Below, one piece after another: positions 14,461 through 36,153 of a stretch of 39,492 nt of DNA. Each line of letters opens with the position of its first letter. The first letter of the stretch is position 1. Source of the DNA: Verrucomicrobiota bacterium (lineage in GTDB: Bacteria; Verrucomicrobiota; Verrucomicrobiia; JAWXBN01); assembly GCA_034440155.1 (NCBI GenBank), contig JAWXBN010000088.1, positions 1 through 39,492 of the forward strand, in the 5' to 3' direction. The translations under genes and the position numbers were made by a program. The notes beneath the pieces are model-generated. The model was not told the origin of the DNA. It saw only the letters and a program-made list of their open reading frames with translations, and made no database searches.

Positions 14461-14478
14461 ACTTAGAGGATTTTTTTT

Positions 14479-15623: not shown

Positions 15624-15626
15624 TTT

Positions 15627-16019
15627 ATGTCACGGAACCGCCGCAATAATACTAATTCCATTAACCTCACAACGCTGATTGTGGCAGGAACTTTTATTTT
15701 TATCGTGGGGGCACTGGCTTTCTTCTACGTGCACCAGAAGAACCGTCTTGTATTTTTAGGGAATGAACTCAGGAAGATGGAACAGCAAATCCAGGTCTCC
15801 CGTGAGAAAAACGAGGTGCTCGCCGGTGCTGTGGCGAATCTGAAAAGCCCGCGGATCGTAAACTACAAAAATATCCAATGGGGATTAGGCCTAGTACAGC
15901 CGCACGACTCGCAATTCGTCGTTTTTGAGCAGACCCCTTCATCGGGCGCTTCTTCCCTGAATGTGGCTTCTGGAACTGTAAAAGCAACGCCGGTAAGAGG
16001 GGCGATACAAGGACAATGA
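15627..16019 (+). CDS. ftsL: FtsL-like bitopic division protein
   Basis: This 130-residue protein has a short basic cytoplasmic N-terminus (MSRNRRNN), one membrane segment at about residues 15-36, then a predicted coiled coil (about 38-70, rich in Glu, Lys and Gln) and a Ser/Thr-rich periplasmic tail. FtsL is poorly conserved in sequence; the assignment rests on this topology and on its place between rsmH and ftsI. FtsL acts with FtsB and FtsQ to activate FtsW-FtsI. Its stop overlaps the ftsI start as ATGA. Confidence 0.75.
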   Translation: MSRNRRNNTNSINLTTLIVAGTFIFIVGALAFFYVHQKNRLVFLGNELRKMEQQIQVSREKNEVLAGAVANLKSPRIVNYKNIQWGLGLVQPHDSQFVVFEQTPSSGASSLNVASGTVKATPVRGAIQGQ

Positions 16020-19323: not shown

Positions 19324-20708
19324 ATGGAGTGAAGTTTTCTGAAGCAGCATCATTTTGTCATGGGAAAATCTCCGGGACCAATCCGGACGCGTTCTTTACT
19401 GGAGTATCCACAGACACCCGTAAAGTCGGACAGAAAAGCCTCTTTGTGGCGCTCAAGGGGGATCGTTTTGATGCCCATGATTTTGTCGGAGCAGCCATCG
19501 CCCAAGGAGCCGCGGGGGTCGTGGTCGAGGAGTCCCGGGGTATCGAGGTGCCTGCCGGAGCGATTAAAATCGAGGTTACTGATACATTAATAGCTTTGCA
19601 GCAAATTGCTGAGGGATACCGTCGCAAATTGCCTGTTAAAACCGTGGCGGTGACAGGTAGTAATGGGAAGACATCGACGAAGGAATTTACCGCGGCCGTA
19701 TTATCCAAAGGATTTGTAACGCGCAAAACACTGGGGAACTTAAATAATCATATTGGTGTCCCACTGACCATTTTCCAACTCGATACGGATACACAGATGG
19801 GAGTCATCGAAATGGGCATGAATCACGCAGGGGAATTAGCCCCGCTCATGGAAATCGCACAACCGATCATCGGGATTGTGACAAATGTCAGTCCGGTCCA
19901 TATTGAGAATTTTAAAGATGAAAACGGGATTGCCGAGGAGAAGGCGACAGTGGTTCGTGGTATCCCGGCGGACGGGCATGCGATTATTAATCTTGATGAC
20001 AAATGGTGCCCGATCGTTTCAAAGGGGGTCACTGCAAAAATCATGACTTTTGGGATCAATAACCAGAGCGCGACGCTCTGGGCGGATGCGATGAGTACAG
20101 GAAAAGACGGTATCCGGTATACCCTGCACCATGAGGGTAAATCATACCCGGCCTTCAGTCCGATTTTTGGTGAGCACATGGTTTACAATGCCATGGCAGG
20201 AAGTCTCGCGGGACTAATCAGTGGATTGTCGTGGGAAGCGATTTGCGCCGGGTTAGCAGAGGTGCAGTTACCCGGTATGAGAATGCAGCAACTCCAGATC
20301 AAGGGAGTAAATCTAATCAATGACGCCTACAATGCCAATCCTGTCTCAATGGCCGCCGGATTAAAAACTCTCAAGACTGTTGGTGCAGGCACAAATTGTT
20401 TTGCCGTAGTGGGAACAATGTATGAGCTGGGTAGCTTGGCCGTCGAAGAACACAAAAATGTCGGACGTTTGGCTGCTGAATTAGGCCTAGACGGTCTTTT
20501 TGCCCGGGGTGAATTTGCCACGCAAATTATACAAGGTGCCCGTGAGGCGGGGATGAAACCCGGACAGGTCAGTGCAGTAAATGAAGCCTTAGAAATTGCC
20601 ACTTTATTGAACCAACAATGTAAACCGGGGGATCACGTGCTCATAAAGGGTTCACGTGGTGCCAAAATGGAGGAGGTTGTGGCCGCATGGCAACAACTCG
20701 CGCAATAA
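19320..20708 (+). CDS. murF: UDP-MurNAc-tripeptide:D-Ala-D-Ala ligase
   Basis: This 462-residue Mur ligase adds D-Ala-D-Ala to complete the pentapeptide. It shows the MurF N-terminal motif VSTDTRKVGQKSLFVALKGDRFDAHDF, the P-loop TGSNGKTSTKEF, TLGNLNNHIGVPLT and MGMNHAGEL, then LINDAYNANPVSM and KGSRGAKME at the C-terminus. It sits between murE (four-base overlap) and mraY, which begins directly at the base after its stop. Two GCAAATTGC motifs lie only 14 bases apart here, in different codon phases. Confidence 0.97.
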   Translation: MNGVKFSEAASFCHGKISGTNPDAFFTGVSTDTRKVGQKSLFVALKGDRFDAHDFVGAAIAQGAAGVVVEESRGIEVPAGAIKIEVTDTLIALQQIAEGYRRKLPVKTVAVTGSNGKTSTKEFTAAVLSKGFVTRKTLGNLNNHIGVPLTIFQLDTDTQMGVIEMGMNHAGELAPLMEIAQPIIGIVTNVSPVHIENFKDENGIAEEKATVVRGIPADGHAIINLDDKWCPIVSKGVTAKIMTFGINNQSATLWADAMSTGKDGIRYTLHHEGKSYPAFSPIFGEHMVYNAMAGSLAGLISGLSWEAICAGLAEVQLPGMRMQQLQIKGVNLINDAYNANPVSMAAGLKTLKTVGAGTNCFAVVGTMYELGSLAVEEHKNVGRLAAELGLDGLFARGEFATQIIQGAREAGMKPGQVSAVNEALEIATLLNQQCKPGDHVLIKGSRGAKMEEVVAAWQQLAQ

Positions 20709-21806
20709 ATGTTATACTATTTGCATAACCTAGCAGACTTTTTCGGGGGATTTAATGTTTTCCAATATGGGACATTTCGGATGCTGATGTCTGCACTGAC
20801 AGCCCTTTTACTTTCCTTATTTATGGGGCCATGGGTCATCCGTCAGCTTCTCGCCCTGAAAATCGGTCAGCCGATTCGGTCAAAAGAAGAAGTGCATAAA
20901 CTTTTTGAATTGCATGGTAAAAAGATGGGAACCCCGACAATGGGAGGAGTATTGATCTTAGCATCAGTGATTATCTCGACTCTCCTCTGGGCCCGTCTGG
21001 ATATTCATTTTATTTGGTTGGGATTGTTCGTTTTGATTGTTTTGGGCGCACTGGGGTTTGCGGATGATTATATGAAGGTGGTCAAAAAGAATTCGAAAGG
21101 TGTATCCGCCCGGCAAAAGTTAGTTGTTCAATTTGGTCTGGCAGTCGTCGTCGGGATATTTTTGATTACAAACAATGATAGCGGGGATAAGATCCGTAAT
21201 CTTTTCCTTCCGATGATCAAAACCCCTGTCATGGATATGGGGATACTCTCACTGGGCTTTTTTGCATTGGTCATGGTTGGTTCATCCAACGCGGTAAATT
21301 TAACGGATGGACTGGATGGGTTGGCCATTGGATGCACGATTACTGTCGCCGGCTCCCTTGCAATATTTGCTTATTTGTCAGGGCAACTGACGTTAGCTAC
21401 CTATCTTTTGATTCCTCATGTAAGGGGAGTGGAGGAGTTATCGATCATGTGTGGGGCCATGGTTGGTGCGGGGTTAGGATTCCTTTGGTATAATTGCCAT
21501 CCGGCAAAGGTATTTATGGGGGATACAGGTTCCTTGGCCATCGGTGGATTCCTTGGTTACGTGGCAATATGCATCAAGCAAGAGTTCGTCTTGGTGATTA
21601 TCGGGGGTATTTTTGTAATTGAAGCCCTCTCGGTCATCCTCCAAGTCGCCTCTTTCAAGCTCACGGGAAAACGGATTTTTGCTATGTCCCCGATCCATCA
21701 TCATTTTGAACTCAAAGGCTGGAATGAATCCACGGTGGTAATCCGGTTTTGGATTCTTTCGATCATTTTTGCACTCATGGGATTTGCCACGTTAAAACTG
21801 AGATGA
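20709..21806 (+). CDS. mraY: Phospho-MurNAc-pentapeptide translocase MraY
   Basis: This 365-residue polytopic membrane enzyme transfers phospho-MurNAc-pentapeptide to undecaprenyl phosphate, forming lipid I. About ten transmembrane segments are visible. The family signatures are KMGTPTMGGVLI, FADDYMKVVKKNSKGVSARQK (the DD Mg site), NAVNLTDGLDGLAIG and FMGDTGSLAIGG, and the HHH motif SPIHHHFELKGW. No Shine-Dalgarno is needed to explain its position, since it starts immediately at the murF stop. It ends in ATGA overlap with murD. Confidence 0.98.
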   Translation: MLYYLHNLADFFGGFNVFQYGTFRMLMSALTALLLSLFMGPWVIRQLLALKIGQPIRSKEEVHKLFELHGKKMGTPTMGGVLILASVIISTLLWARLDIHFIWLGLFVLIVLGALGFADDYMKVVKKNSKGVSARQKLVVQFGLAVVVGIFLITNNDSGDKIRNLFLPMIKTPVMDMGILSLGFFALVMVGSSNAVNLTDGLDGLAIGCTITVAGSLAIFAYLSGQLTLATYLLIPHVRGVEELSIMCGAMVGAGLGFLWYNCHPAKVFMGDTGSLAIGGFLGYVAICIKQEFVLVIIGGIFVIEALSVILQVASFKLTGKRIFAMSPIHHHFELKGWNESTVVIRFWILSIIFALMGFATLKLR

Positions 21807-23182
21807 AACCCGACCTTAAAAATTATAATATTGTTGTTCTCGGTGCCGGCCGTAGTGGTTGCGCAGCCGCACGGTTCCTTTTGTCCAAAGGGGCCAGAGT
21901 GACAATTCAGGATGAGGGCACTATCCGTGATGCCCAAGACCTTGTCCGAGCCGGATGCCAGGTACAGTCAGGGGGGGCAATCGATTTTGAAGGACGATTT
22001 GATCTGGCTGTGGTCAGTCCAGGAATCGATCCCCGTAAACTCTGGATTCAATCTTTAATAAAAAGAAATATCCCGATCTGGAGTGAGCTCGAGTTGGCAT
22101 GGCAATTTTGTGAATGCCCGATCATAGCCATCACAGGGACCAATGGCAAAACGACCACGACAGAATTGCTGGAGTCCGTATTTCGCACGGCCGGGAAAAA
22201 GACTGTGGCTAGCGGGAATATCGGCCTGCCATTCACCGAAGCGATTGCAGAAAGCGGATCGCTGGATGTGATGGTCATAGAGGTCAGCTCTTTCCAGCTT
22301 GAACAAATCAAAGGGTTTCGCCCCGTCACCAGTGTGTACCTGAATCTTTCACCAGACCACCTTGACCGTTATGATTCCATGGAGGATTATCGTGCAGCAA
22401 AAAACCGTATTTTTGAGAATCAAAGGGCCGATGACAGTGCCGTGGTAAATGCTGACTTTCATTGTGACGAAATCACCGCCCGCAAAATAACATTTAGCAC
22501 GACGCAAAAAAATGCCGATTATACTTTTGATGCGGGGATGATATTTAAATCCGGGGAGCCTTATTTTGATACGGGCCGATCCCTCTTGCGCGGTGTCCAC
22601 AATGCTGAAAATATTATGGCGACACTGGCTGTGGCTGCTGAATGGGGTTTACCTTTTGAAAAAGTGACAGAAGCGATTTGCGCCTATCAACCGGCCCCGC
22701 ACCGTTGTGAGCTTGTCGCAGTCATTAATGGAGTGAGTTTTATTAATGACTCCAAGGCGACGAATATTGATGCCTTAGGAAAGGCACTGCTGTCACAGTC
22801 CGGGAAAGTAATCCTGATCGCAGGTGGTAAAGATAAAGGGTTTTCTTTTGATTCACTCGCTCCTTTGATCGCTCAAAAGGTGAAGAAGGCATTTTTAATC
22901 GGCGAGACGGCAGGTAAAATAGCCGGTTCTTGGATGGTCTCGACGGAGATAGAGGATTGTGGCGACTTGGCCACCGCCACACGAAAAGCCAGTGCAATGG
23001 CTAGTGCAGGTGATGTGGTCCTATTTTCCCCAGCCTGCTCGAGCTTTGATCAATTCAAAAACTACGAAGACCGCGGGAACCAGTTTAAAAATTTCGTACT
23101 CCCTCAACAAGGGTATGATGAAGCAAACAACAAAACAACAAGAAGCCCCTTAGGGGTTAATCAGGAGATAAAAATCATATGA
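21803..23182 (+). CDS. murD: UDP-MurNAc-L-Ala:D-Glu ligase
   Basis: This 459-residue Mur ligase adds D-glutamate. It has a Rossmann-like N-terminus (NIVVLGAGRSGCAAARFLL), the P-loop TGTNGKTTTTELL, VSSFQLEQI, LNLSPDHLDRYDSMEDYRAAKNRIF, and SKATNIDALGKAL with FSPACSSFDQFKNYEDRG at the C-terminus. I start it at ATG 21803, which overlaps the mraY stop as ATGA; an upstream in-frame ATG at 21749 lies well inside mraY and is unlikely. The stop overlaps the LysM gene start. Confidence 0.97.
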   Translation: MKPDLKNYNIVVLGAGRSGCAAARFLLSKGARVTIQDEGTIRDAQDLVRAGCQVQSGGAIDFEGRFDLAVVSPGIDPRKLWIQSLIKRNIPIWSELELAWQFCECPIIAITGTNGKTTTTELLESVFRTAGKKTVASGNIGLPFTEAIAESGSLDVMVIEVSSFQLEQIKGFRPVTSVYLNLSPDHLDRYDSMEDYRAAKNRIFENQRADDSAVVNADFHCDEITARKITFSTTQKNADYTFDAGMIFKSGEPYFDTGRSLLRGVHNAENIMATLAVAAEWGLPFEKVTEAICAYQPAPHRCELVAVINGVSFINDSKATNIDALGKALLSQSGKVILIAGGKDKGFSFDSLAPLIAQKVKKAFLIGETAGKIAGSWMVSTEIEDCGDLATATRKASAMASAGDVVLFSPACSSFDQFKNYEDRGNQFKNFVLPQQGYDEANNKTTRSPLGVNQEIKII

Positions 23183-24483
23183 AACTCGGTAAGATATTCA
23201 TCATCGTGCTGGCTCTGCACGTTGTGGTGATCGGTGGCATCCTTGGATACCACTTCCTCAAGAGTAAAAACAAAGGAGTATCTGCGGATATGGCGACACA
23301 AAACGTCATTGAATCGGCTCCTTCATCCATCAATAATAAAGTAGTGGCCGACATGGACAGTGCTTCCACGGCTATTCCTACCACCGACGCCTATGCGACG
23401 GAGATTATTACGGAACCGGCCTCTGTGGCGCAGTCCACTCCACCGTCCCAGACTACCCCTGTGGCCAAAGCTCCTGTAACTGCAACCCATCCAGTAGCGG
23501 TAGTCGTTCCAGAAACAGCTCCGGCTGTGGCGACTGCACAGCCTGTTCCTTCTGTGGCCCCTGAAGTTGTAGAATCTGTGACGCCCACGGCATCCGTGCC
23601 TGAAGTCATTGCCGAGTCTCAACATGTCGATGTGGCTACCAGTGTTGTGACTTATAAGGTTCAAAAAGGTGACACGCTGATTAAAATCGCCAAGAAAAAT
23701 AATGTCTCCGTGTCCAGCCTGAAGACTGCTAATAAACTTTCGGGCGATAATCTCAAGATTGGGCAAGCTTTGACAATCCCCGGGAAAATGACAGAGGTTA
23801 TTACAGAGCAAGTTGCTGTGGTGGCATCTAATCCTGCGACCGGCACGGTCATCGAAAAGAGTGCAGAGATTAAGGAAACCATTGTCACGGAAAATGTCAG
23901 TCATACGGTTAAAAAAGGGGATACACTCTATCGCATCTCCAAACTTCAGAATGTTTCCGTGGATGCAATCAAGTCAGCGAATAAGCTGACCGGTGAAAAC
24001 CTCAAAGTAGGTCAAAAGCTTGTGATCCCGGGTAAAACAAAGACAGTCACTAAAGCCCCTGCCCTCCAGACGGCCAAAGTGTCGGCACAGACCACTTCAA
24101 CAGGAAATATGAATGTTTATGTCGTACAAAAAGGTGACAGCATTTATGGAATAGCCAAAAAACACAATGTACCCGTCCAAGAACTTGTTTCTGCTAACAA
24201 TATCAAAGACGTGACAAAAATCAGTGTCGGGCAAAAACTATCCATCCCTGCGAAAGAAAGTACGACAGCAGCCCCTAAAGTCGTGGCTCCGGCAGTCATT
24301 CCCGCAGGTGCGACAGCCGTTCCCTCAACCCCTGTTAATGGTGTCGCCGCGATGGCTACAGCGAAGGTTGATGAAGCTGTCAAGACTGTGGTGCCTGTCC
24401 AAAATACGGAAAGTGCCTCGTCACCCGCTGCAACAGTGCCTGCGAGCCAGATGCAAATGGCTAACAGCGAAAAGCTCGACTAA
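23179..24483 (+). CDS. Membrane-anchored triple-LysM protein inside the dcw cluster
   Basis: This 434-residue protein has one N-terminal membrane segment (about residues 5-25), a Pro/Ala/Val/Thr-rich linker to about residue 155, three LysM domains at roughly 157-202, 241-286 and 312-358, and a low-complexity tail. Each LysM has the YxVxKGDTL...I(A/S)K...LKxANxL...LKxGQxLxIP pattern. LysM binds GlcNAc-containing glycan, so the protein should tether the inner membrane to peptidoglycan. No catalytic domain is visible. It overlaps murD by four bases and precedes ftsW, so it is cotranscribed with the septal genes; a septal glycan-binding role is inferred. Confidence 0.85.
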   Translation: MKLGKIFIIVLALHVVVIGGILGYHFLKSKNKGVSADMATQNVIESAPSSINNKVVADMDSASTAIPTTDAYATEIITEPASVAQSTPPSQTTPVAKAPVTATHPVAVVVPETAPAVATAQPVPSVAPEVVESVTPTASVPEVIAESQHVDVATSVVTYKVQKGDTLIKIAKKNNVSVSSLKTANKLSGDNLKIGQALTIPGKMTEVITEQVAVVASNPATGTVIEKSAEIKETIVTENVSHTVKKGDTLYRISKLQNVSVDAIKSANKLTGENLKVGQKLVIPGKTKTVTKAPALQTAKVSAQTTSTGNMNVYVVQKGDSIYGIAKKHNVPVQELVSANNIKDVTKISVGQKLSIPAKESTTAAPKVVAPAVIPAGATAVPSTPVNGVAAMATAKVDEAVKTVVPVQNTESASSPAATVPASQMQMANSEKLD

Positions 24484-24525: not shown

Positions 24526-25668
24526 ATGTTTTCCACCAAACAAAGTGCCATCACCCTCGTTGTCGTCGTATTGATACTGACGACATTGGGGTTAGTGATG
24601 CTTTTCAGCACCAGTGCATTTGCCATGAAACAAAGTGGGGACCCCTACTATTTCATCGAAAGGCAGGTTGTCTTTCTGTTGCTGGGTGGGGTGGGATGCA
24701 TTGCGGCGGCTTGCTTAAATTACCAAAACTACGAAAAGTATGCTTGGTGGATATTAGGGGCGACGATATTGGCTCTCATTCTATGTTTGATACCGGGTTT
24801 AGGAATAAAGGTCGGAGGAGCCAGGCGTTGGTTGAATCTTGGATTTACACGTTTACAACCAGCGGAATTCGCAAAGTTAGGTGTCATCATCTTTCTTTGT
24901 TTTTGGATGGCGAAAAATTATAAATTGGTTCCAAAATGGGATTGGGGGTTTATCTATCCCGCACTCATTGTTTCTGTGCCACTGGCCCTGATTTTTCTAC
25001 AACCTGACTTAGGAACGGCTTCATTAATCGGTTTAGTCATGATCATACTGATGTTCATAGCGGGGACGAAAATGAGGTATATACTCCCGAGTGTTATTCT
25101 CCTGCCTTCGATCGTTTTGACGATCGCATTAGCGATCCCCGAAAGGCGTGCACGACTGCTTTCATTCCTAAATCCAGAAAATGACAAAGACGGGAAAGGT
25201 TATCAAGTCTGGCAAGCCCTGATTGCCTTGGGCTCGGGGGGGATTGATGGTTTAGGCTTGGGTAATAGCCGCCAGAAAATGATGTATCTGCCGGAAGCAC
25301 ATAATGATTTTATTTTCCCTGTTATCGGCGAAGAGCTTGGACTCTGGTGGACGCTCGGGATTGTGTTTTGTTACATCCTGATCATGGTCTGTGGATTCAT
25401 GATCGCCGTCTGTGCCAAGGACAAATTCGGTCTATACCTGGCTTCAGGGATTACCCTTCTGATTTGCCTACAGGCCGTTATTAATATTGCCGTTGTCACA
25501 AACCTTTTGCCGAATAAGGGAATGCCCTTGCCTTTTATCAGTTACGGGGGATCTAATTTATTGGTCTGTCTGATTGGCATCGGTATCTTAATCAATATTT
25601 ATAGGCATGGGGTTTTTATCGAAAAACATGACCCTTTCGCGATAGCGGAATACACACCGAAGGTCTAA
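24526..25668 (+). CDS. ftsW: Septal peptidoglycan glycosyltransferase FtsW (SEDS)
   Basis: This 380-residue SEDS protein with about ten membrane segments polymerises lipid II together with FtsI. Motifs include GLVMLFSTSAFA in TM1, GGARRWLNLGFTRLQPAEFAKL, FLQPDLGTA, and PEAHNDFIFPVIGEELG, which contains the conserved catalytic-loop Asp of SEDS proteins. KGMPLPFISYGGSNLL is the usual C-terminal signature. Its position between murD/lysM and murG is canonical for ftsW rather than rodA. Confidence 0.96.
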   Translation: MFSTKQSAITLVVVVLILTTLGLVMLFSTSAFAMKQSGDPYYFIERQVVFLLLGGVGCIAAACLNYQNYEKYAWWILGATILALILCLIPGLGIKVGGARRWLNLGFTRLQPAEFAKLGVIIFLCFWMAKNYKLVPKWDWGFIYPALIVSVPLALIFLQPDLGTASLIGLVMIILMFIAGTKMRYILPSVILLPSIVLTIALAIPERRARLLSFLNPENDKDGKGYQVWQALIALGSGGIDGLGLGNSRQKMMYLPEAHNDFIFPVIGEELGLWWTLGIVFCYILIMVCGFMIAVCAKDKFGLYLASGITLLICLQAVINIAVVTNLLPNKGMPLPFISYGGSNLLVCLIGIGILINIYRHGVFIEKHDPFAIAEYTPKV

Positions 25669-25675
25669 GAATTAT

Positions 25676-26755
25676 ATGAACTTTGTCATTGCATGTGGCG
25701 GTACAGGAGGACACCTTTTCCCGGGATTAGCCGTGGCAGAGGTGCTCAAGGATCGTGGACATGAGGTGACTCTCTTTATTTCCAGTAAGGAAATCGACAG
25801 GCTCGCACTAAAAGATTATCCAGGATTGCATGCAGTGAGCCTATCGGTGGTTGGTTTGCCGCCGATTTTCTCACTGAGGATGATTACATTTATCAAAGGA
25901 TTTATTAGCTCGATTTTCAAATGCCTGTCGATTTACCAGACTGATGCTCCCTCATGCATACTTTCTATGGGCGGGTTTACGGCTGCACCTCCCGTGATTG
26001 CCGGGTGGCTCAAAGGAGTGCCCAGTATTGTCCATGATTCAAATGCTATCCCGGGTAAGGCAAATGTATTGGTATCTCGGTTTGTCTCCAAAGTAGTTTT
26101 AGGCTTGGATGAGTGTAGGTCATATTTTCCACATAAACCTGTGGAAATAACAGGCACACCACTGAGAAAATCATTGAAGTCGGCCACTGAAAAGCATTAT
26201 GAATATTTCGGTTTGAATCCTTTGAAAAAAACGATTTTGGTCATGGGCGGTAGCCAAGGGGCGGGGGGAATAAATGAAGCTGTCCTGAAAGTCTTGCCGA
26301 TCATGAATGAAGCCCAAAAAAGGGAATGGCAATTCATCCACATTACCGGCTCCAAGGATGAATCCAAAGTGCGTGAAATATACAGCAAGACCGGTGTGGT
26401 GGCATTTCTAGCCCCATTCAGTCATGAGATGGGCGAGATGTACCGAGTGGCAGATATCGCCATTTCACGCTCGGGAGCAGCGTCGATGACAGAACTTTCA
26501 TTCTTTGGTATTCCGGCGGTTTTTATCCCATACCCTTATGCCGCCGAAGATCACCAAACCAAGAATGCCCGTATCTTTGAAAGGGCCGGTGCCGCACAAC
26601 TTGTTTCACAAGAGGAAGCCACCCCCCAAAAGTTAGTCGATGATATTAATAAACTTTTGAGTCATCATGATGAATTTTCGAAAAAAGCACGTGCACTTTT
26701 TGTCGAAGATGCTGAAATAAAGGTAGCAAACGTTATGGAGGCATTATGTCGTTAG
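25676..26755 (+). CDS. murG: Lipid II synthase MurG (GT28)
   Basis: This 359-residue peripheral membrane glycosyltransferase adds GlcNAc to lipid I to make lipid II. The glycine-rich N-terminal loop is CGGTGGHLFPGLAVAE (from Gly8); SMGGFTAAPPVIAG and VHDSNAIPGKAN follow; the second glycine loop is VMGGSQGAGGINEAV; donor-site residues lie in ISRSGAASMTELSFFGIPAVFIPYPYAAEDHQTKNA. It starts 7 bases after ftsW. Its last ten bases overlap the start of murC-murB. Confidence 0.97.
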   Translation: MNFVIACGGTGGHLFPGLAVAEVLKDRGHEVTLFISSKEIDRLALKDYPGLHAVSLSVVGLPPIFSLRMITFIKGFISSIFKCLSIYQTDAPSCILSMGGFTAAPPVIAGWLKGVPSIVHDSNAIPGKANVLVSRFVSKVVLGLDECRSYFPHKPVEITGTPLRKSLKSATEKHYEYFGLNPLKKTILVMGGSQGAGGINEAVLKVLPIMNEAQKREWQFIHITGSKDESKVREIYSKTGVVAFLAPFSHEMGEMYRVADIAISRSGAASMTELSFFGIPAVFIPYPYAAEDHQTKNARIFERAGAAQLVSQEEATPQKLVDDINKLLSHHDEFSKKARALFVEDAEIKVANVMEALCR

Positions 26756-29058
26756 ACATGAATCATATTCAAAAATTAATTAATGAAAAAAATGGACGCA
26801 TCCACCTGATCGGGGTGGGGGGGTCGGGAATGAGTGGGATCGCCCGAATCCTCCTCCAGAAAGGTTGCCCAGTCAGTGGCTCTGACCTGCTACAGAATAA
26901 CGAGATTGAAAAACTCCAGGCGCTGGGATTAAAATTCCAGAACCGCCATCATGCCAGCCATGTAAAGGATGCGGCCTTGGTGGTTTATTCATCGGCTATC
27001 CGTTGTGAAAATGAAGAGTATAAAGCCGCACAAGAAGAGGGTATTCCCTTGGTTCGTAGGGCTGAGGCATTGAGTGTATTGATGGGTTCGCAAAAGTCTG
27101 TGGCGGTAGCTGGAATGCATGGGAAAACCACCACGACGTCGATGTTGGCATTTGTCTTGAAAGCTTGTCACCAGCAACCCAGCTACTACGTGGGTGCCGA
27201 AGTGCCTGACCTTGGCGCGAGTGCGGAGCTGGGTATGGGCGAGCAATTTGTTGCGGAGATTGATGAAAGCGATGGTACGGTGACATTGTTTGAGCCGGAG
27301 TATAGTATTGTGTTGAATATTGAGGAAGAGCATCTCGATTATTACAAAGATATCAGGGCTATCCTCTCGGCCTTTGAGACGCTGGGGAGTAATACCCAGA
27401 AGAAAATTTTCTACTGCGCAGATGACACTGAAACTTTCCTGCTCTTTGCGAAAAGTGACAAGGCGGTCAGTTTTGGATTTGGTGATGTGTCGACTATTAG
27501 GGCTATTGACGTGCAGCCGGGGCAATTCAGCTCGACATTCAAGGTTATGAATAATAACTGTTTGCTCGGATCTGTGACGCTGAATGTCCCCGGCAGGCAG
27601 AATATTTCCAATTCCCTTGCGGTGATTGCTGTTGCCCTTGAGTTCAACCTTTCATTTGAAAAAGTCGCCAAAGCATTGGGCGGATTTTGTGGTGCCAGAA
27701 GGCGTTTTGAAGTGAAGCTCAAGACAAATAATTTTGTTGTTGTCGATGATTACGCCCACCATCCTACTGAGATTAAAGCGACTTTAGCAGCGGCCAAAAG
27801 CGGTCATAGCCAGAGGATTATTGCTCTCTTTCAACCGCACCGTTACAGCAGGACCATGCATTTCAGGGATGAGTTTGCCAAGGCATTTAGTGATGCAGAC
27901 CTGCTTTTCCTGACCGATATATATGCGGCCAGTGAAAAGCCCGTTGACGGGGTCACTGGAAAAACAATTTATGATGCCGTCAAGCTGGAGTCTGGTATCC
28001 AAGTGGATTATGAACCAAATTTCCGCAAGTTACTCTCAAAGGTTTCGCAAATTGCTCAGCCTGGGGACATGATTATCACTCTCGGGGCAGGGAATATCCA
28101 TGAGGTGGCGGCTAAAATTGCGGATGAACTCAAGACTTTTGAAGGCATCCGGGCTGTGACAAAGCCTGAAACAAAAATTCTCCGCCAAGAACCAATGCGT
28201 AAACATACCACCATGCATGTGGGTGGTCCGGCACAATTTTGGATTGAACCAGCTGACGAGGTGGACCTGAAGGTTATTCTAGAGTACGCAGCCTCCCATG
28301 ATATTCCACGCATTGTGGTCGGACGCGGGAGCAATTTGCTCGTCAAGGAAGGGGGGATTAATGGGTTTGTGCTCCATCTTGGTTCCCCGTATTTTAAACG
28401 GGTTGAAATTCTTGAAGGTAACAGGATCCTTACAGGTGCCGGTGCGCGTAATAAGGAAGTCGTGATGCAGCTCAAGCGGATGAATCTCGGAGGATTTGAG
28501 TATTTGGCCGGAGTTCCGGGGAATATAGGCGGCGCATTAAGGATGAATGCAGGAGCCATGGAGGGGAGCACATTTGATGTCGTCGAGAGTGTCCGCTTTA
28601 TGGATGACCGAGGAATCATTTATGACAAAAAGAAAGAGGAGCTGGAAGTTTATTACCGTAATGTTCCTGTATTCAGGACTCACATAGCCCTTTCCGCAGT
28701 TTTGAAAGCCAGTGTCGATACGACTGAGCAGATTACCCAACGCCTCAAGGTGATGGATACAAAACGCTGGACGACACAGCCGGCGGCCCCTAGTGCCGGG
28801 TGCATTTTTAAAAATCCCGCAATGTGTGGGGCAGGGAAATTGATTGATGAGCTCGGACTGAAAGATACGAGGGTCGGAGGCGTGCGTGTCTCCGATATCC
28901 ACGGTAATTTTATCATCAATGATGCCAAAGGCACCGCCAATGATGTCTTAGAATTGATCGAAATCATCAAACAAAAAGCCAAGGAAGTCCGGGGTATCGA
29001 ACTCGAAACGGAAGTGATGATCTTGGGCGAGGATGAGGATGGAGTGATTTATGAATAA
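26746..29058 (+). CDS. murC/murB: Fused MurC-MurB: UDP-MurNAc:L-Ala ligase / UDP-MurNAc dehydrogenase
   Basis: This 770-residue fusion joins two steps of precursor synthesis. Residues 1 to about 460 are MurC: GVGGSGMSGIA, the P-loop GMHGKTTTTSML at 123-134, EIDESDGT, and DDYAHHPTEIKATL with FQPHRYSRT. From about 475 on it is MurB: MHVGGPAQFW, the FAD-binding GRGSNLLVKEGGINGFV, the GVPGNIGGALRMNAGAM loop, SAGCIFKNP near residues 683-691 and DIHGNFIINDAKGTA. The usual active-site Ser of SAGS is Cys686 here. Start ATG 26746 has GGAGG four bases upstream and lies inside the end of murG. Fusion gives a stoichiometric, possibly channelling, pair. Confidence 0.95.
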   Translation: MSLDMNHIQKLINEKNGRIHLIGVGGSGMSGIARILLQKGCPVSGSDLLQNNEIEKLQALGLKFQNRHHASHVKDAALVVYSSAIRCENEEYKAAQEEGIPLVRRAEALSVLMGSQKSVAVAGMHGKTTTTSMLAFVLKACHQQPSYYVGAEVPDLGASAELGMGEQFVAEIDESDGTVTLFEPEYSIVLNIEEEHLDYYKDIRAILSAFETLGSNTQKKIFYCADDTETFLLFAKSDKAVSFGFGDVSTIRAIDVQPGQFSSTFKVMNNNCLLGSVTLNVPGRQNISNSLAVIAVALEFNLSFEKVAKALGGFCGARRRFEVKLKTNNFVVVDDYAHHPTEIKATLAAAKSGHSQRIIALFQPHRYSRTMHFRDEFAKAFSDADLLFLTDIYAASEKPVDGVTGKTIYDAVKLESGIQVDYEPNFRKLLSKVSQIAQPGDMIITLGAGNIHEVAAKIADELKTFEGIRAVTKPETKILRQEPMRKHTTMHVGGPAQFWIEPADEVDLKVILEYAASHDIPRIVVGRGSNLLVKEGGINGFVLHLGSPYFKRVEILEGNRILTGAGARNKEVVMQLKRMNLGGFEYLAGVPGNIGGALRMNAGAMEGSTFDVVESVRFMDDRGIIYDKKKEELEVYYRNVPVFRTHIALSAVLKASVDTTEQITQRLKVMDTKRWTTQPAAPSAGCIFKNPAMCGAGKLIDELGLKDTRVGGVRVSDIHGNFIINDAKGTANDVLELIEIIKQKAKEVRGIELETEVMILGEDEDGVIYE

Positions 29059-29986
29059 ACCGGTTTCACAAATGAATATTGCAGTCCTTAAAGGGGGGAT
29101 TTCAAGCGAACGCGAAGTTTCCCTCCGCTCAGGGGCTGCCGTCGCAGAGGCATTAGCCGGGGAAGTGGCTTCAGTTGTAGAAGTCGACATCCAGTCGAAA
29201 GATTTTTCACTGCCAGCAGGTATCGATTTTGCCTTTTTAGCGTTGCATGGGGAATTTGGCGAGGATGGACAAATACAAAATATCCTAGAGCATAAAAAAA
29301 TTCTCTACTCGGGGGCGGGTGTAGAAGAAAGTAGGAATGGCTTTGATAAAATCCTGACAAAGTTACTCTTCGAAAAAGCTTCTGTCAAAACCCCCGGATT
29401 TGAACTCCTTGACGAGCCCCAGGCTCGTTTAAGCAAATTGCATGCGCCAATCGTGATCAAGCCGCCATGCCAAGGTTCCAGTGTAGGTATCGAGATTATC
29501 AAGGGAGAGTCTTTAATTGCTGGTGCTATCCAAAGGGGCTACCGCTACGGTTCGCGCCTGTTAGTAGAGGAATTCCACCAGGGGCGTGAATTGACGGTGG
29601 GGGTGATAGGAGGAGAAGTGCTTCCGGTAGTCGAAATCCGTCCAAAGAGTGGTTTTTACGATTACACAAATAAATATACCCAAGGGGCGTCGGAGTACCA
29701 AGTGCCTGCGGATCTTTCTCCGGAGGAAACTGAAATTGTGCAGGCGGAGGCTTTAAAGGCTTATCATGCAATCAGTGGACACCTTGTTTACGGGCGCGTG
29801 GATGTGATCCTCGATTCGAAAAAGAATCCATGGGTATTGGAGGTCAATACCATTCCTGGTATGACGGGGACGAGCCTGCTCCCGAAAGCGGCGGCGGCAA
29901 TGGGCATTAGTTTTCCAGCACTCTGTTTGAAAGTGATTGTCGAGTCGTTAAAAGCCCGGCTATCAGTCAGTGAGGTGTTATTATGA
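29051..29986 (+). CDS. ddl: D-alanine:D-alanine ligase
   Basis: This 311-residue ATP-grasp enzyme joins two D-Ala for MurF. It begins with VLKGGISSEREVSLRSGAAV and shows FLALHGEFGEDGQIQ, the ATP-grasp IVIKPPCQGSSVGIEI, VEEFHQGRELTVGV, and the metal-binding end VLEVNTIPGMTGTSLLPKAA. It overlaps the murC-murB stop by eight bases and ends in ATGA overlap with ftsQ. The D-Ala substrate is expected from the alr at 8752-9885. Confidence 0.97.
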   Translation: MNKPVSQMNIAVLKGGISSEREVSLRSGAAVAEALAGEVASVVEVDIQSKDFSLPAGIDFAFLALHGEFGEDGQIQNILEHKKILYSGAGVEESRNGFDKILTKLLFEKASVKTPGFELLDEPQARLSKLHAPIVIKPPCQGSSVGIEIIKGESLIAGAIQRGYRYGSRLLVEEFHQGRELTVGVIGGEVLPVVEIRPKSGFYDYTNKYTQGASEYQVPADLSPEETEIVQAEALKAYHAISGHLVYGRVDVILDSKKNPWVLEVNTIPGMTGTSLLPKAAAAMGISFPALCLKVIVESLKARLSVSEVLL

Positions 29987-30843
29987 ATTACCGGAGAAGC
30001 ACGGGAATAAACCCGAAACTTTTGAATGTCAAGGTCACTTCCCGTAAGAAGACGACGGTTAAAACCCAATCCTCGGGAAAATTTCTCTTGGTACTGGTGA
30101 TTGTTGTTTTCTCCCTGACGGCAACAGTATTGGCTACAAAATTCCTAGCCCAAAAAATGTTTTATGAAAATGAGAGTTATACGCTCCAGAATATTTACAT
30201 CGATAACCATGCCCAGATGAGCCAAGTCGAAATCCTGCAAATTGCCCAAGTAAAAAAAGGGGATAACCTTTTTGCTCTGGATTTGGAGGAAGTCCGCAGC
30301 AAACTTGAAGGGATCCCTCATATTAAAAATGCAGAGGTTTATCGACAGCTACCGGATTCCTTAACCATCCGGCTCATTGAAAGGCAACCTGTCGCGCGAT
30401 TGGGGCTGTGGTCCGGGAAAGTGGATAATGGGGTGAGGGTTATTGACCAATATTTATTAGATGACGAGTCCGTCGTGATGGGCCGCCGGCCGGCGCAATC
30501 CCCTCATTATCCTTTTTTAGTCGGTCTGAATGAAAAACAGGAAATTAAGGAGGGTATGAAACTGGCTAACCCGGAGGCCATTGCCGCCTGTAAATTATTA
30601 AAAAGAATTGATGTCAGCCCGGCCCGTTCGATTATTGAAATTGTCCAAATAGATGTTTCAAAAAAAGATCAGGTGACGTTGGTCTTGAATGACGGGGCAA
30701 GGATCAAAGTTTTGTCGCAATTTGTGGACGAACACATTGAAAGGCTCGAAGCGATTTTAAATTACACACATCAAAACGAAAAAATCCTGCAAACAGCTGA
30801 TCTGACGGTGGATCGGAATGTGCCGGTGGTATTCCAACCATAG
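29983..30843 (+). CDS. ftsQ: Cell division protein FtsQ/DivIB
   Basis: This 286-residue bitopic protein has a basic cytoplasmic N-terminus (about 32 residues, many Lys and Arg), a membrane segment at about 33-52, then a POTRA domain (TLQNIYIDNHAQMSQVEIL...LEGIPHIKNAEVYRQLPDSLTIRLIERQPVA) and the FtsQ beta domain. In the divisome it bridges to FtsL/FtsB. It is placed between ddl (ATGA overlap) and ftsA, the classical order. One GCAAATTGC motif (30237-30245) lies in the POTRA coding region. Confidence 0.9.
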   Translation: MNYRRSTGINPKLLNVKVTSRKKTTVKTQSSGKFLLVLVIVVFSLTATVLATKFLAQKMFYENESYTLQNIYIDNHAQMSQVEILQIAQVKKGDNLFALDLEEVRSKLEGIPHIKNAEVYRQLPDSLTIRLIERQPVARLGLWSGKVDNGVRVIDQYLLDDESVVMGRRPAQSPHYPFLVGLNEKQEIKEGMKLANPEAIAACKLLKRIDVSPARSIIEIVQIDVSKKDQVTLVLNDGARIKVLSQFVDEHIERLEAILNYTHQNEKILQTADLTVDRNVPVVFQP

Positions 30844-30861: not shown

Positions 30862-32106
30862 ATGAGGAATAAATCAAAAATTATAGTAGGATTGGAAGTA
30901 GGGACTTCCAAAGTGACAGCCATTGTCGGGGAGATAAAACCGGACAACTCGATCCAGATATTAGGATTTGGCAGGTCAAAGTCTGTGGGGATCCGCAAGG
31001 GAGAAATAAATGATTTTGACATGACGAGCGAATGTATTTACCAGGCGCTCAACGAGGCAGAGCTCAAAGCTAATGTCACGATTAATGAATTATATCTGGC
31101 GTGTACGGGTGGACATATCAAAAGCTTTTCACACCGGGGCGATGCAATGATTTCAGGCGAGGAAAGTGAAGTCTGCTTGTATGATCTTGACGAGGTGGAG
31201 GAATCCGCCAAGGAGGCGGCCATCCCAGCAGAGGACACTTTGATCCATGCGGTGCTCCAACATTATTATGTGGATGGAAAAGAAGGAATCCGTAATCCTG
31301 TTGGACAATTGGGTACCAAGCTTGAAGCGGATTACCTCCTGATACACGGGCGCGAACTGAGGATTAAAAATGCCATCAAATGTGTGAAGAGTACAGGGGT
31401 CGAAGTTTATGATGTGGTTTTTTCCCCTGTAGCCGCCGCCCAGACAATTTTGAAACAGGATGATAAAAGGCATGGTGCCATAATGATCGATATCGGGGCG
31501 GGTACCACTGAGTATGTTGTTTATGCGAATGATGCCATAAAGCATGCAGGAGTCATTGCTGTCGGGGGAGAACATATTACTAATGATATTTCGATTGGAT
31601 TAAAGCCCACCTCGGCAGCATCCGAGAGGTTAAAAATCGAGCATGGAAGCCTATTAGTGGAAGATATGGATTCCCAAGAGCTGATCAATTTAAGGGGTGA
31701 GTTAGCCTATGAAGAATGGACCGTTTCTAAGGCTGACCTGACGGCTATCATGAGGGCAAGGGTGGAGGAAATATTTGAACTAGTCCACCAAGACATTGAG
31801 AGCAAGGGATTGATGCCTTATTTAAGGCATGGTGTCTACCTGACAGGAGGATCGAGTATGATTGTGGGAATCGCTGAGCTTGCGGAGGAGGTTTTTGAAT
31901 TACCGGTCAATGTCCTTCAGGGGCCACAAACAAACACGCAAATACCCCTTGATTTGAATCCTGAATATTCTGTGGTCGTGGGGCTCTTGAAATATGCACA
32001 TAAAGTCGAAGAAGAAAAAGCTGAGAGAATGCCGCATCAGACACTTGAACGGATCAGTCGCCGCGTAATGGATTTTATCTACGCGATGAAAAGCTTAATA
32101 TTTTAA
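30862..32106 (+). CDS. ftsA: Cell division protein FtsA
   Basis: This 414-residue actin-like ATPase anchors FtsZ to the membrane. Phosphate-1 is GLEVGTSKVTAIVGE, phosphate-2 is IDIGAGTTEYVVY, and the adenosine motif is YLTGGSSMIVGI; the SHS2 (1C) region lies between (LACTGGHIKSFSHRGDAMIS). The C-terminus ISRRVMDFIYAMKSLIF is an amphipathic membrane-targeting helix. It starts 18 bases after ftsQ behind a strong GGGGGAGGAAG ribosome-binding site, the first clear one for several genes, suggesting a higher translation rate for ftsA. Confidence 0.96.
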   Translation: MRNKSKIIVGLEVGTSKVTAIVGEIKPDNSIQILGFGRSKSVGIRKGEINDFDMTSECIYQALNEAELKANVTINELYLACTGGHIKSFSHRGDAMISGEESEVCLYDLDEVEESAKEAAIPAEDTLIHAVLQHYYVDGKEGIRNPVGQLGTKLEADYLLIHGRELRIKNAIKCVKSTGVEVYDVVFSPVAAAQTILKQDDKRHGAIMIDIGAGTTEYVVYANDAIKHAGVIAVGGEHITNDISIGLKPTSAASERLKIEHGSLLVEDMDSQELINLRGELAYEEWTVSKADLTAIMRARVEEIFELVHQDIESKGLMPYLRHGVYLTGGSSMIVGIAELAEEVFELPVNVLQGPQTNTQIPLDLNPEYSVVVGLLKYAHKVEEEKAERMPHQTLERISRRVMDFIYAMKSLIF

Positions 32107-32130: not shown

Positions 32131-33432
32131 ATGATTGAATTCAATAGGGACGGAATCTTGGGTGAACAGGCCTCACTACCGCCAAGCCGTATTAAAATAT
32201 TCGGCGTGGGTGGGGTGGGGATTCATTGTATTGATAAAATGATTATTGAAGGCCTTAACCAAATGCCTTTGGTTTCTTTTGATACCCGTGCACAATCCCT
32301 TGAATCGAGTATTGCTGGGGAAAAAGTACTGTTAGGCAAAAGGATCTTACGCGGGATCGGGGCCGGGGGTGATCCTGAGTCTGGAAAATCGGCAGCCACT
32401 GATGATGAGGGGGTCATCCTCTCACTGATGAAAGATACAGACATTGTTTTTCTGGTCGGCGCACTGGGGGGAGGCACAGCTACGGGAGGGCTCCCTGTAT
32501 TTGCGAAGACGGCCCGTGTCGCGGGAATAAAAACAGTGTCCATAGTGACCCTTCCCTATGACTTCGAAGGAAAACGCAGGATGGATGATGCCCGGCGGGC
32601 ATTGGATCTATTAGAGGAGGTTTCGGATTGTGTCTTGGTTTTGGATCATTCACGTTTATCGGATTTGATCGATGAGATCGGAGGATTGAGGAATTCATTT
32701 GAATCCATGACAGATCTCCATGTCAGGGCTATTTTGGCATTATGGCGGATGTTGTCCTTTAAAAACCTCGCAAAGATTGACTTTGAAACCATCGGCAAAT
32801 GTTTTGAGCAGGATGCACAAACTTTATTTGGTTATGGTGAGGTCAGGGACAGGAATGTGAAGGATGCTTTGGGCCATGTATTTTCCAGTGTTTTAATGGG
32901 GAATAATATCCTTTTACGCCAGGCGGACTCCGTCCTGATGAGTATCACTGCGGGAAAAGAAATGACCATGCAGGATGTCCAGCACATCCTTGATGATGTG
33001 AAACTGCGATTGAATCCGCAAACAAAGATACAAGTTTCAGCCAGTATCCATGAGGATTTTGATGACCGTCTGAATATTTCAGTTTTTGCAATCACTCCCC
33101 ATGGACGCCCGGAAATCAAACCCCTGTCTGTGGTGAAGGATTCAGCCGAAATCGAAATGAACCTCTTTCAACAACCCGCCAAAACGGTTAAAGAAAAATC
33201 CGGTTCAACATCAATGGCATCAGCTTTTCCGAATGGCCTTGTAGAATCCGAGATAACAATTAAACCTGCGGCAACGGTAAAGCCTAAGAAGAAGAGGTTG
33301 GAGAAGCAGGAGTTAATTGAATTCCAAAAGCAAAAAGGCCGTTTCGATAAAACAGAACCCACAATGGTGAACGGAGTGGATCTCGATATTCCCACATTCA
33401 TGCGCAAAAAAATCGCTATAGGAGCGGAGTAG
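32131..33432 (+). CDS. ftsZ: Divergent cell division GTPase FtsZ
   Basis: This 433-residue tubulin-family protein is placed directly after ftsA. The G-box region GVGGVGIHCIDKM, GIGAGGDPESGKSAA, LPYDFEGKRR and the tubulin signature region GGGTATG (residues 113-119; usual FtsZ GGGTGTG) are recognisable but altered. In the T7 synergy loop, KIDFETI (215-221) replaces the usual NxDFADV: the first Asp is kept (D217) while the second, catalytic Asp position is Thr220. The C-terminal peptide LDIPTFMRKK is nearly canonical (LDIPxFLR), so FtsA binding should be retained. A 90-residue Lys/Glu-rich linker precedes it. The 3' end overlaps the convergent GH1 gene by 17 bases. Confidence 0.9.
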   Translation: MIEFNRDGILGEQASLPPSRIKIFGVGGVGIHCIDKMIIEGLNQMPLVSFDTRAQSLESSIAGEKVLLGKRILRGIGAGGDPESGKSAATDDEGVILSLMKDTDIVFLVGALGGGTATGGLPVFAKTARVAGIKTVSIVTLPYDFEGKRRMDDARRALDLLEEVSDCVLVLDHSRLSDLIDEIGGLRNSFESMTDLHVRAILALWRMLSFKNLAKIDFETIGKCFEQDAQTLFGYGEVRDRNVKDALGHVFSSVLMGNNILLRQADSVLMSITAGKEMTMQDVQHILDDVKLRLNPQTKIQVSASIHEDFDDRLNISVFAITPHGRPEIKPLSVVKDSAEIEMNLFQQPAKTVKEKSGSTSMASAFPNGLVESEITIKPAATVKPKKKRLEKQELIEFQKQKGRFDKTEPTMVNGVDLDIPTFMRKKIAIGAE

Positions 33433-34957
33433 TTCCTCGAGTGTATTTCATAATCAAGCGCCGGTAGGTTTCTGAAGGATTGTCGCCGAAGGGATCCACG
33501 GGCATGCGGCGGGTGCCTTGGGTAAAATCAATGGAATAAAGCCCGAAGCGTGGGGCGTATGATCCCCATTCATAATTATCAGTCATTGACCAATGAAAAT
33601 AGCCTTTAACCGGGAAACCTTCTTGAATCGCTGTGTCCACAGCCTCCAAATGAGCAGAGAGGTAAGCACTGCGGTGAACCCTGTCAAAACGGGGATAGAG
33701 TTTGTTGTTAAATGATCTTCTGGTAGCCATCCCGTTTTCAGCAATAACAATGTCAAAGCCTGGAAAAGACTTTGCATAAGACCGGATAAAGAATCCTAAT
33801 CCTTGGGGAAGCATACGCCAATCCCACCATTTACTCGTAACGGCTTGCAACATTTGCATCCTGAGGGACTTTGTCTGGTATTCCCAATCCCACCAGACCG
33901 GCCAGCGAAAAGCGTGTGCGCTGAAGGGATCGTAATAGTCAAATGCCACATAATCAAAAAAACGGGTTTCACCAGATTCATACATCTCTTCCCAGAGTGG
34001 ACGCAGGGAATTTTCTGTAAAGAGTTTGGGTAACAAGGCGAGTTGGAGTTTTCTTGCCAGCATACCGAAAGCGTAGGAGGGATCTTTTTTGAGGGGGAGC
34101 TTGGCATCACGGAAATCGTGATCAAACTCTTTGGCGCGCCGTTTCAGGTAGAGTGGGAGGTCGTGTAATGGTTTTTTACCCTGACCAAAGTGGAGTACAT
34201 CGTACCAGACTCGGTCCACCCAATAAAGATCATGGCAAAAGTTATTTGTCGAAATATTCACCTCGCCCCACTTATTTTTGGCATATAGTTTTTTAAGCCT
34301 GCTGTAGGTACGGACATGGGCAGTGTAGAGGTTGACGAGTGCTTTTTGGGCGTAAAGGGGGCCTCGCTTGAAGGAGCCGGGGAATATTCCCAGAATGTAT
34401 TGGTTGAGGATGAGGATATTGGCCTCATTTATGGTGATAATCCAGCGCAAGGGAGGATGTCCATTTTCGATGAGTTTATGATTGATCCATTCGACCGTAT
34501 CAACGCAATGATTGCTGAGTAAGTCGATATTTTCTGTTTTTAACCAAGGATCGCTCCCGAGCCAATTTGGATGGGTAAAGTGGAAAAGGGTGACCAACGG
34601 GGTTAATCCTTGTTCGTAAGCCGAGGATATCATCCCGGCATAATGGGAAAGGGCCTTCAGGTCATAAGCCGGTATTTGAGTGGACCGGATATCTAAGGAA
34701 GGTTGGAGTCTGGTCCATTCGATTCCCAGCCGGAATGAATTAATGCCCAAGGATCTGGCTAGGGAAAAGTCTTCTGCGTAAATTTTCCAGAAGTCAGCAG
34801 CAAGTCCCGAGGGTGCGACCTCACGCTGTTTTTCCCATTGAGCCCAATTATTAAGAGGTTCACCCTGATTATTGTATCCCCCTTCGTGTTGGTAACCGGA
34901 AGAGGATACGCCCCAAAAAAAGGGAGAAGATTGATTTTGGTCATTCAGATGATTCAT
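33416..34957 (-). CDS. Glycoside hydrolase family 1 protein (beta-glycosidase fold)
   Basis: This 513-residue protein has a full GH1 TIM barrel: FFWGVSSSGYQHEG, GINSFRLGIEWTRLQP, TLFHFTHPNWL, the acid/base motif TINEAN (E178; usual TxNEP, here NEA), the nucleophile motif IAENG (E407) and YFHWSMTDNYEWGSYAPRFGLYSIDF. Both catalytic glutamates are present. No signal peptide is seen, so it is probably cytoplasmic. The ATG at 34957 shares its A with the stop of the upstream glycosyltransferase (TGATG), so the two are translationally coupled; a TTG one codon earlier is an alternative start. Coupling to a lipid-type GT suggests a glycolipid role rather than sugar catabolism, by inference. Confidence 0.9.
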   Translation of the reverse strand: MNHLNDQNQSSPFFWGVSSSGYQHEGGYNNQGEPLNNWAQWEKQREVAPSGLAADFWKIYAEDFSLARSLGINSFRLGIEWTRLQPSLDIRSTQIPAYDLKALSHYAGMISSAYEQGLTPLVTLFHFTHPNWLGSDPWLKTENIDLLSNHCVDTVEWINHKLIENGHPPLRWIITINEANILILNQYILGIFPGSFKRGPLYAQKALVNLYTAHVRTYSRLKKLYAKNKWGEVNISTNNFCHDLYWVDRVWYDVLHFGQGKKPLHDLPLYLKRRAKEFDHDFRDAKLPLKKDPSYAFGMLARKLQLALLPKLFTENSLRPLWEEMYESGETRFFDYVAFDYYDPFSAHAFRWPVWWDWEYQTKSLRMQMLQAVTSKWWDWRMLPQGLGFFIRSYAKSFPGFDIVIAENGMATRRSFNNKLYPRFDRVHRSAYLSAHLEAVDTAIQEGFPVKGYFHWSMTDNYEWGSYAPRFGLYSIDFTQGTRRMPVDPFGDNPSETYRRLIMKYTRGTTPLL

Positions 34958-36153
34958 CAAGTGTGGCTAGCTCCTTTGGAGGTCGCATGTTCACCCCGCA
35001 GGGTGACTTGATTATGCTCTGGCCGCGATTTATCATGGAGTAAAATATCTGTCACTTCTTGGGCTGCATAGGGGCAGCCGAGTAACATCGCCTGACGGCT
35101 CATAGCCTCTAGTTTGCCTTCGGTTTTTAATAACTTTGCGAGACGGAAGTGTATGGTGAGAGTATCGGGACATTTGATTGCAGCGCCGTTCTCGAGGAGA
35201 AAATCACTATTCCTTTCTTCCTGTCCAGGTATCGGTGAAATGATGACAATGGGTAAACCGGAAGCCAGGGCTTCTGAAGTAGTCAGTCCACCTGGTTTTC
35301 CAATATAAAGATCCGAAGCAGCCATCCAGAGATTTATTTCATTGGTATATCCCAGAAGGGTAAAAGCATCTTGCTTTTGATGCTGGGCAACTTGCTTTTC
35401 CACCCCTAGCTTCATCTCGACGGATTTTCCACAGAGGACAATCGTATGGAGGGGGAAGTTAATCCGACAGAGGGCTGCGATCATAGATGCGATATCCTCA
35501 TCCTTGAGGCCACTGAGGTTGAGGAGGATAATTCTTTTACCGGGGGGTAAGTTTTTGAGGGTACGTATTATGATTTTATCGTGGGGTTTGCTGAATACCG
35601 GATCGATCGGAATGCCGGTGGTGCTAATCCTGTCCAAGGGGATGCCGAGAGCCTCTAGGTGGGCGTGGACCTCGTCTCGGGCGACAAAGTAACGGTGAAA
35701 ATTCCGTGCAAGCCACATGGCGTGGAGGTCGTAATCTGTAATGACGATCGATAGGTTTGTGTGGAGTGTCCCATTACCAATCAAGTGGGAGATGATACCC
35801 GCAGGCATAAAGTGGGTGCAGAGACAGATGTCAGGCTCGAATTGTTTAATAAAATTTACCAAGGGCCTCGTATTGAGCCTGTCAAGCATGAGCCGCATCT
35901 TGTCGGTTTTCCATGGTTCATCAGTCTGTTTATACCACCAGCCGAGGAAATCAGGAGCCTTCTCGACGAGTTGCGCGTAAAGTTTCGAGTAAAAATCCCG
36001 GAAAAGTTTATTCGTGAAATCCAGTGCGTCACAATGCCGGACTGCTGCAACATCCGGTTTCAGGGAGAAAGCTTTTTCGAGGGCTGAACCACAGCGGACA
36101 TGACCAGTGCCGGCACTGGTGGAAAGGATAAGGACTTTATGTTTCATGGGCAT
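34957..36153 (-). CDS. GT28-type glycosyltransferase, MGDG synthase / diacylglycerol glycosyltransferase-like
   Basis: This 398-residue protein resembles the MGDG synthase/UgtP/MurG group. It has an N-terminal MGDG-synthase-like domain (VLILSTSAGTGHVRCGSALEKAF, THFMPAGIISHLI, VITDYDLHAMW) and a C-terminal GT-B donor domain (YTNEINLWMAASDLYIGKPGGLTTSEALASGLPIVII, PGQEERNSDFLLENGAA). The likely product is a glycosyl-diacylglycerol or related glycolipid at the inner membrane face; the sugar cannot be told. I start it at ATG 36153; a longer frame to 36219 exists, but a -10-like TATATA (within 36172-36179) lies inside it. It heads the two-gene unit with the GH1 protein. Confidence 0.82.
   Translation of the reverse strand: MPMKHKVLILSTSAGTGHVRCGSALEKAFSLKPDVAAVRHCDALDFTNKLFRDFYSKLYAQLVEKAPDFLGWWYKQTDEPWKTDKMRLMLDRLNTRPLVNFIKQFEPDICLCTHFMPAGIISHLIGNGTLHTNLSIVITDYDLHAMWLARNFHRYFVARDEVHAHLEALGIPLDRISTTGIPIDPVFSKPHDKIIIRTLKNLPPGKRIILLNLSGLKDEDIASMIAALCRINFPLHTIVLCGKSVEMKLGVEKQVAQHQKQDAFTLLGYTNEINLWMAASDLYIGKPGGLTTSEALASGLPIVIISPIPGQEERNSDFLLENGAAIKCPDTLTIHFRLAKLLKTEGKLEAMSRQAMLLGCPYAAQEVTDILLHDKSRPEHNQVTLRGEHATSKGASHT

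Follow-up and report, generated by a model that had tools for sequence, protein, structure and literature searches.

The window, the whole 39,492-nucleotide stretch of DNA analysed here, carries on its forward strand a dcw cluster that Pfam assignments show to be complete and to end in ftsZ. Its upstream part (13948-23182) comprises mraZ, mraW, a small DivIC/FtsL-like ORF, ftsI, murE, murF, mraY and murD, and is followed by a LysM protein gene, ftsW (24526-25668), murG (25676-26755), a murCB fusion holding murC and murB domains (26746-29058), ddl (29051-29986), ftsQ (29983-30843, with POTRA_1 and FtsQ_DivIB_C domains), ftsA (30862-32106, with FtsA and SHS2_FTSA domains) and ftsZ (32131-33432). 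The normal ftsQ-ftsA-ftsZ order, already noted in an earlier sequence-only reading of this DNA, was thus seen by Pfam within the longer run murG-murCB-ddl-ftsQ-ftsA-ftsZ. The gene between murD and ftsW (23179-24483) encodes a multi-LysM protein, and a glycosyl hydrolase family 1 gene on the reverse strand (33416-34960) is convergent with ftsZ, overlapping its 3' end by 17 bases.

A divergent FtsZ as the only one found in its genome

The ftsZ open reading frame translates to an intact protein of 433 amino acids and is preceded by a Shine-Dalgarno-like sequence, AGAGGGAATAAATATG. Its product harbors a Tubulin/FtsZ GTPase and an FtsZ_C domain (PF00091, 1.9e-28, and PF12327, 6.6e-9, both above the Pfam cut-off), and the gene lies in the dcw cluster, 3' of ftsQ-ftsA. 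Its match to TIGR00065 reached 210 bits and remained below the equivalog cut-off of 295 bits, a cut-off that is too strict for this phylum, where just 35 of 388 genomes score above it. AlphaFold2, run on an alignment with 60 FtsZ, gave a model with an overall pLDDT of 80 and most of the core above 90 (a single-sequence structure model reached a pLDDT of 35), and among the best 50 PDB chains that Foldseek listed for this predicted model, all were FtsZ (E ~1e-34, TM by target 0.77-0.88, ~0.85 for the best).

The C-terminal FtsA-binding-type peptide LDIPTFMRKK, which the sequence-only reading had described as retained, was found in the translation, where it forms part of an extended C-terminal motif typical of the phylum (GRFDKTEPTMVNGVDLDIPTFMRK; 33337-33408, forward strand, residues 403-426). 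Phylum-wide, this block can be written as G[RKx]F(D/E)K-x-EPT-x3-G-x-(D/N)-LD-x-P-T, and its upstream G-x-F part was present in 219 of 228 FtsZ of the phylum versus 3 of 32 others, counting recognisable tails only. This is possibly a second partner-binding site. Taken together, its domains, fold, gene order and tail identify the window protein as FtsZ.

No other member of the tubulin/FtsZ family was found in the genome. A single PF00091 match, and hence no second FtsZ, was found in the whole genome (2.76 Mb, 97% complete, 132 contigs), and a profile search of the same 97%-complete assembly yielded no PF13809 (Tubulin_2) gene. The assembly thus showed no second ftsZ or FtsZ-like gene of the kind that the sequence-only reading had named as evidence against itself.

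Active-site residues in the window FtsZ and its phylum

The T7 synergy loop of the window FtsZ (NLAKIDFETIGK; 32764-32799, forward strand, residues 212-223) aligned without gaps both in phmmer-to-PDB and in MAFFT alignments, each of which placed K215, D217, E219 and T220 opposite E. coli N207, D209, A211 and D212 (E. coli residue numbering, used below, was verified against NC_000913). The loop therefore reads K215-I-D217-F-E219-T220 where that of E. coli reads N207-V-D209-F-A-D212, and of the two catalytic aspartates it keeps the first (D217, equivalent to E. coli D209 and S. aureus D210), a point that the sequence-only reading had missed; Thr stands in place of the second and Lys in place of the Asn, just as that reading had stated. 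The same reading had pointed to the tubulin signature GGGTATG (32467-32487, forward strand, residues 113-119), and this too was borne out, the change corresponding to G109A and setting the protein apart from the PS00227-type pattern [SAG]GGTG[SAT]G by one Gly to Ala exchange. The T2 loop region LVSFDTRA (32269-32292, forward strand, residues 47-54) carries Asp for N43 and Arg for D45; Q47, E138 and R142 are retained. An Arg at D45, as in this DTR, was seen in 3 of 183 FtsZ of the phylum, and together with N207K it puts positive residues at the usual Mg2+/K+ positions.

Structures of the S. aureus filament show D210 swinging in to position the catalytic water, while D213 stays in place and shapes the surroundings; N208 touches the shells of K+ and Mg2+, and D46 that of Mg2+ (PMC8936486). 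Aligned to these residues, T220 does occupy the position of D212, but the catalytic centre still has an acid, as D217 matches the swinging Asp. A conserved Asp at this position speaks in part against the sequence-only reading, by the terms that it had set itself.

To place these changes in context, we aligned 183 FtsZ of the phylum, one per genome and drawn from 73 family codes, and tabulated them at the active-site positions, alongside 77 FtsZ from a wide range of other bacteria and archaea that had been found by the pattern G[LM]GGGTG[ST]G and the C-terminal peptide, and were thus selected for an intact signature and not for T7. The sampled phylum is probably Verrucomicrobiota, to judge from near relatives named 'Opitutae bacterium' and 'Verrucomicrobia bacterium', and family f12 was assigned to Opitutae by the 94% identical FtsZ of an 'Opitutae bacterium'. 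N207, D209 and D212 were all kept in 34 of the 183 phylum FtsZ (34 genomes of 13 families) versus 77 of 77 from other phyla; D212 was missing from 85 of the 183 and D209 from 69, and G109A was present in 23. At the T2 positions, the FtsZ from outside the phylum had N43 in 76 of 77 cases and D45 in all 77. The alteration of T7 loop and signature in the window FtsZ is thus real but not peculiar to this protein, most FtsZ of the phylum being altered in T7.

The losses follow clades. D212 was lost throughout the Opitutae-type FtsZ, and a well-supported clade of six families (f12, f40, f43, f60, f8 and f35) lacked it in 37 of 37 rows, with D209 kept; in Verrucomicrobiales-like FtsZ it was D209 that was mostly lost, and another large clade mostly carried Gly at 209. 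Parsimony on a tree from which the T7 columns were excluded required a minimum of 25 changes for position 212 and 14 for position 209. The window FtsZ and Opitutae may share a single loss of D212, as a clade joining the two was not rejected by the AU test (p = 0.315). The K-D-T combination of the window was also seen in a distant FtsZ of another class (ELLKIDFSTMYN; family f85). Three very divergent FtsZ of family f7, from compact genomes that are 99% complete, had an unrecognisable or missing T7 loop and may be natural FtsZ that do without a catalytic loop. In family f78, five mostly complete genomes gave no FtsZ match and two relatives held very divergent FtsZ, a pattern that would fit a possible loss of FtsZ within the phylum.

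Mutual avoidance of losses at the two acidic positions

The joint distribution of the two acids was analyzed in a first set of 178 rows that could be aligned (177 from the phylum, plus E. coli), with either Asp or Glu counted as an acid at 212 and with families f7, f78 and f82 left out because their T7 loop is missing or not confidently alignable. Both acids were kept in 48 rows, D209 only in 65, the 212 acid only in 64, and neither in one. A Pagel-type likelihood ratio test favoured dependent over independent evolution of 209 and 212 (28.2, 4 df, p = 1e-5), on a tree that was built on FtsZ itself and has long branches, and when independent evolution was simulated, one double loss or fewer arose in 0.17% of runs (P = 0.0017). 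Independent-pair tests on the tree offered few informative pairs.

The pattern recurred in a hold-out of 63 further genomes with 18 new family codes, in which both acids were kept in 23 cases, D209 only in 22 and the 212 acid only in 18, with no double loss where 6.3 were expected (hypergeometric P = 8e-5, uncorrected for kinship). Pooling both sets gave 241 rows, 240 from the phylum and one from E. coli; the respective counts were 71, 87 and 82, with one row lacking both acids versus 30.3 expected. In other words, among 240 alignable phylum sequences 82-83 lack D209, 88 lack the 212 acid and one lacks both. Of the 45 pairs formed from active-site and control positions, 209-212 alone withstood Bonferroni correction (p = 1.8e-6), with 212-142 the next-best (p = 4.6e-3). 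FtsZ of this phylum may therefore lose D209 or the 212 acid, but hardly ever both, exceptions to this either-or rule being L185 of family f67 and the left-out families f7, f78 and f82. It would appear from these sequence data that in this phylum the composite site needs one acid and can do with one, though double losses could also be avoided because the interface requires an acid for structural reasons and not for catalysis.

The sequence-only reading had further suggested that another acidic residue, such as E219, might serve in the window FtsZ. The window FtsZ and four other rows of the first sample, these forming one clade (f79/f69), combine an acid at 211 with a non-acidic residue at 212, and no dependent evolution of 211 and 212 was detected (p = 0.39, 241 rows); a general role of this residue is thus not supported. 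An acid at 211 (as in GLDDL) was common among FtsZ lacking D209 (46 of 83, versus 7 of 158 with D209), largely in one clade and with an LRT p of 0.29 on the tree. Acid at 211 is accordingly not supported as a general compensation for either loss.

A probable one-aspartate GTPase and its alternatives

Our preferred reading is that the window FtsZ is probably a working divisome FtsZ, tethered by FtsA, that acts as a one-aspartate GTPase with slower turnover and belongs to the either-or pattern of its phylum. Such a protein would bind GTP and assemble into head-to-tail filaments, its C-terminal peptide would tether these to FtsA, and GTP would be hydrolysed by the single T7-loop aspartate D217 instead of two, with hydrolysis and filament turnover presumably slower. 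The alignment of D217 with the swinging catalytic Asp (PMC8936486) and the retention of E138 and R142 support hydrolysis by one aspartate. The phylum-wide distribution, the near absence of double losses, and the setting of the gene as the sole FtsZ found, in a complete dcw cluster and with its FtsA tail kept, also speak for this reading. Both aspartates do matter in E. coli and S. aureus: D213N abolishes the assembly of S. aureus FtsZ (PMC8936486), and E. coli D212G has a roughly tenfold lower GTPase activity (~90% lost, in a membrane-targeted fusion), forms static rings in vitro (PMC7320174) and complements only when a suppressor is present (PMC5405962). Because D212G, which also keeps D209, loses this much activity and needs suppressors, turnover of the window FtsZ is expected to be slow unless compensated, and a different turnover of the polymer, as the sequence-only reading had put it, is a fair inference by analogy. 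We may speculate that K215 and R53 provide such compensation, bringing positive charge to the places that usually hold K+ and Mg2+; conversely, with N207K, N43D and D45R all at the usual Mg/K site, the window FtsZ may be weaker than an ordinary single-Asp FtsZ. In the phylum, Verrucomicrobium spinosum ftsZ is essential by TraDIS (PMC12283558), which indicates that the divergent FtsZ of these bacteria can be a working division protein, an argument from essentiality and not from T7 type.

Alternatively, the window FtsZ may be GTPase-dead, its GTP-bound, long-lived filaments forming a stable ring that is remodelled by FtsA, accessory proteins and septal peptidoglycan synthesis without treadmilling. 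T220 at the position of D212 would fit such a protein, given the static rings of D212G in vitro (PMC7320174), as would the positive charge that N207K and D45R bring to the Mg/K site. A few FtsZ of the phylum (f7, f78 and L185) that have neither acid, or no T7 loop at all, point the same way. An E. coli strain carrying ftsZ2 (D212G), which is reportedly viable, also counts on this side. Yet dispensable hydrolysis would predict common double losses, and these were seen in one of 240 alignable phylum sequences and in none of the 63 hold-out genomes, making this alternative unlikely, albeit one that deserves to be kept in mind. We find it more doubtful still that E219, beside T220, replaces D212 in its role and that two acids therefore remain. 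E219 is present, and the f79/f69 clade independently combines D209 and E211 with Arg or His at 212; however, across the phylum an acid at 211 was not associated with loss of D212, and none is found at this position in the large Opitutae clade. In the window FtsZ itself, E219 may be regarded as a weaker candidate for compensation.

That this is a decaying or accessory FtsZ in a cell divided by another system is very improbable: the low TIGR00065 score and the long branch could be read this way, but it is the sole FtsZ found, with an intact ORF, a good ribosome site, a complete dcw operon and a conserved extended C-terminal motif. Least credible of all is an artefact of sequencing, assembly or alignment at the T7 loop, for although the assembly is of metagenome type, in 132 contigs, and the genome is the single one of its family and order in the comparison, the frame is open across the gene, the T7 flanks are gap-free in independent alignments, and the same kind of change recurs in many independent genomes of the phylum.

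Compared with known systems, the window FtsZ, read here as a one-aspartate GTPase, shares with canonical FtsZ (E. coli, S. aureus and B. subtilis) its fold (Foldseek E 1e-34), GTP pocket framework, gene order, FtsA-binding-type tail and D209, but differs at D212, N207, N43 and D45 of T2, and G109, with a core identity of 27-31% in the fold comparison. The T7 loop of beta-tubulin, which faces the GTP of alpha-tubulin, likewise keeps its first acid and has Lys for the second; unlike the window FtsZ, whose interfaces are all identical, tubulin is an obligate heterodimer, and hydrolysis continues at its neighbouring interface. E. coli D212G resembles the window FtsZ in keeping D209 and losing D212, but is a laboratory mutant needing suppressors (PMC5405962), whereas the proteins found in nature differ at many further positions. 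Nitrosopumilus maritimus FtsZ is also a natural FtsZ without a canonical T7 loop, but it lacks the GTP-binding motif as well and does not polymerise, its host dividing by Cdv proteins (PMC3684127). With FtsZ of Verrucomicrobiota, the window FtsZ shares the long branch, the dcw cluster with a murCB fusion and the extended C-terminal block. Verrucomicrobiota FtsZ are known as the most divergent in bacteria (Santana-Molina 2023, PMC9871819), and their divergence, domain layout and essentiality, including those of V. spinosum FtsZ, have been covered (PMC9871819, PMC1845146 and PMC12283558); a term search of these three papers found no discussion of the T7 loop. Thus, the divergence of the phylum's FtsZ is already published, and the repeated, mutually exclusive loss of its catalytic acids appears to be new to the literature searched.

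Implications of the either-or pattern

For the phylum as a whole, we lean, more cautiously, towards the view that FtsZ has relaxed many times from a two- to a one-aspartate GTPase, in two alternative ways, with the remaining acid presumably still hydrolysing GTP in cells and the protein still dividing them with slow or differently driven turnover. If true, the two catalytic acids would be partly redundant and not jointly essential. The need for FtsZ hydrolysis and treadmilling in division is an open question that has so far been approached mainly with laboratory point mutants, and the phylum supplies natural single-aspartate FtsZ in cultured groups, the Opitutae type with D209 only and the Verrucomicrobiales-like type mostly with the 212 acid only, so that the pattern predicts the catalytic residue for each group. 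The altered T7 loop also qualifies the description of division in these bacteria as relying on a 'classical' FtsZ (PMC12283558), and is relevant to inhibitors aimed at T7.
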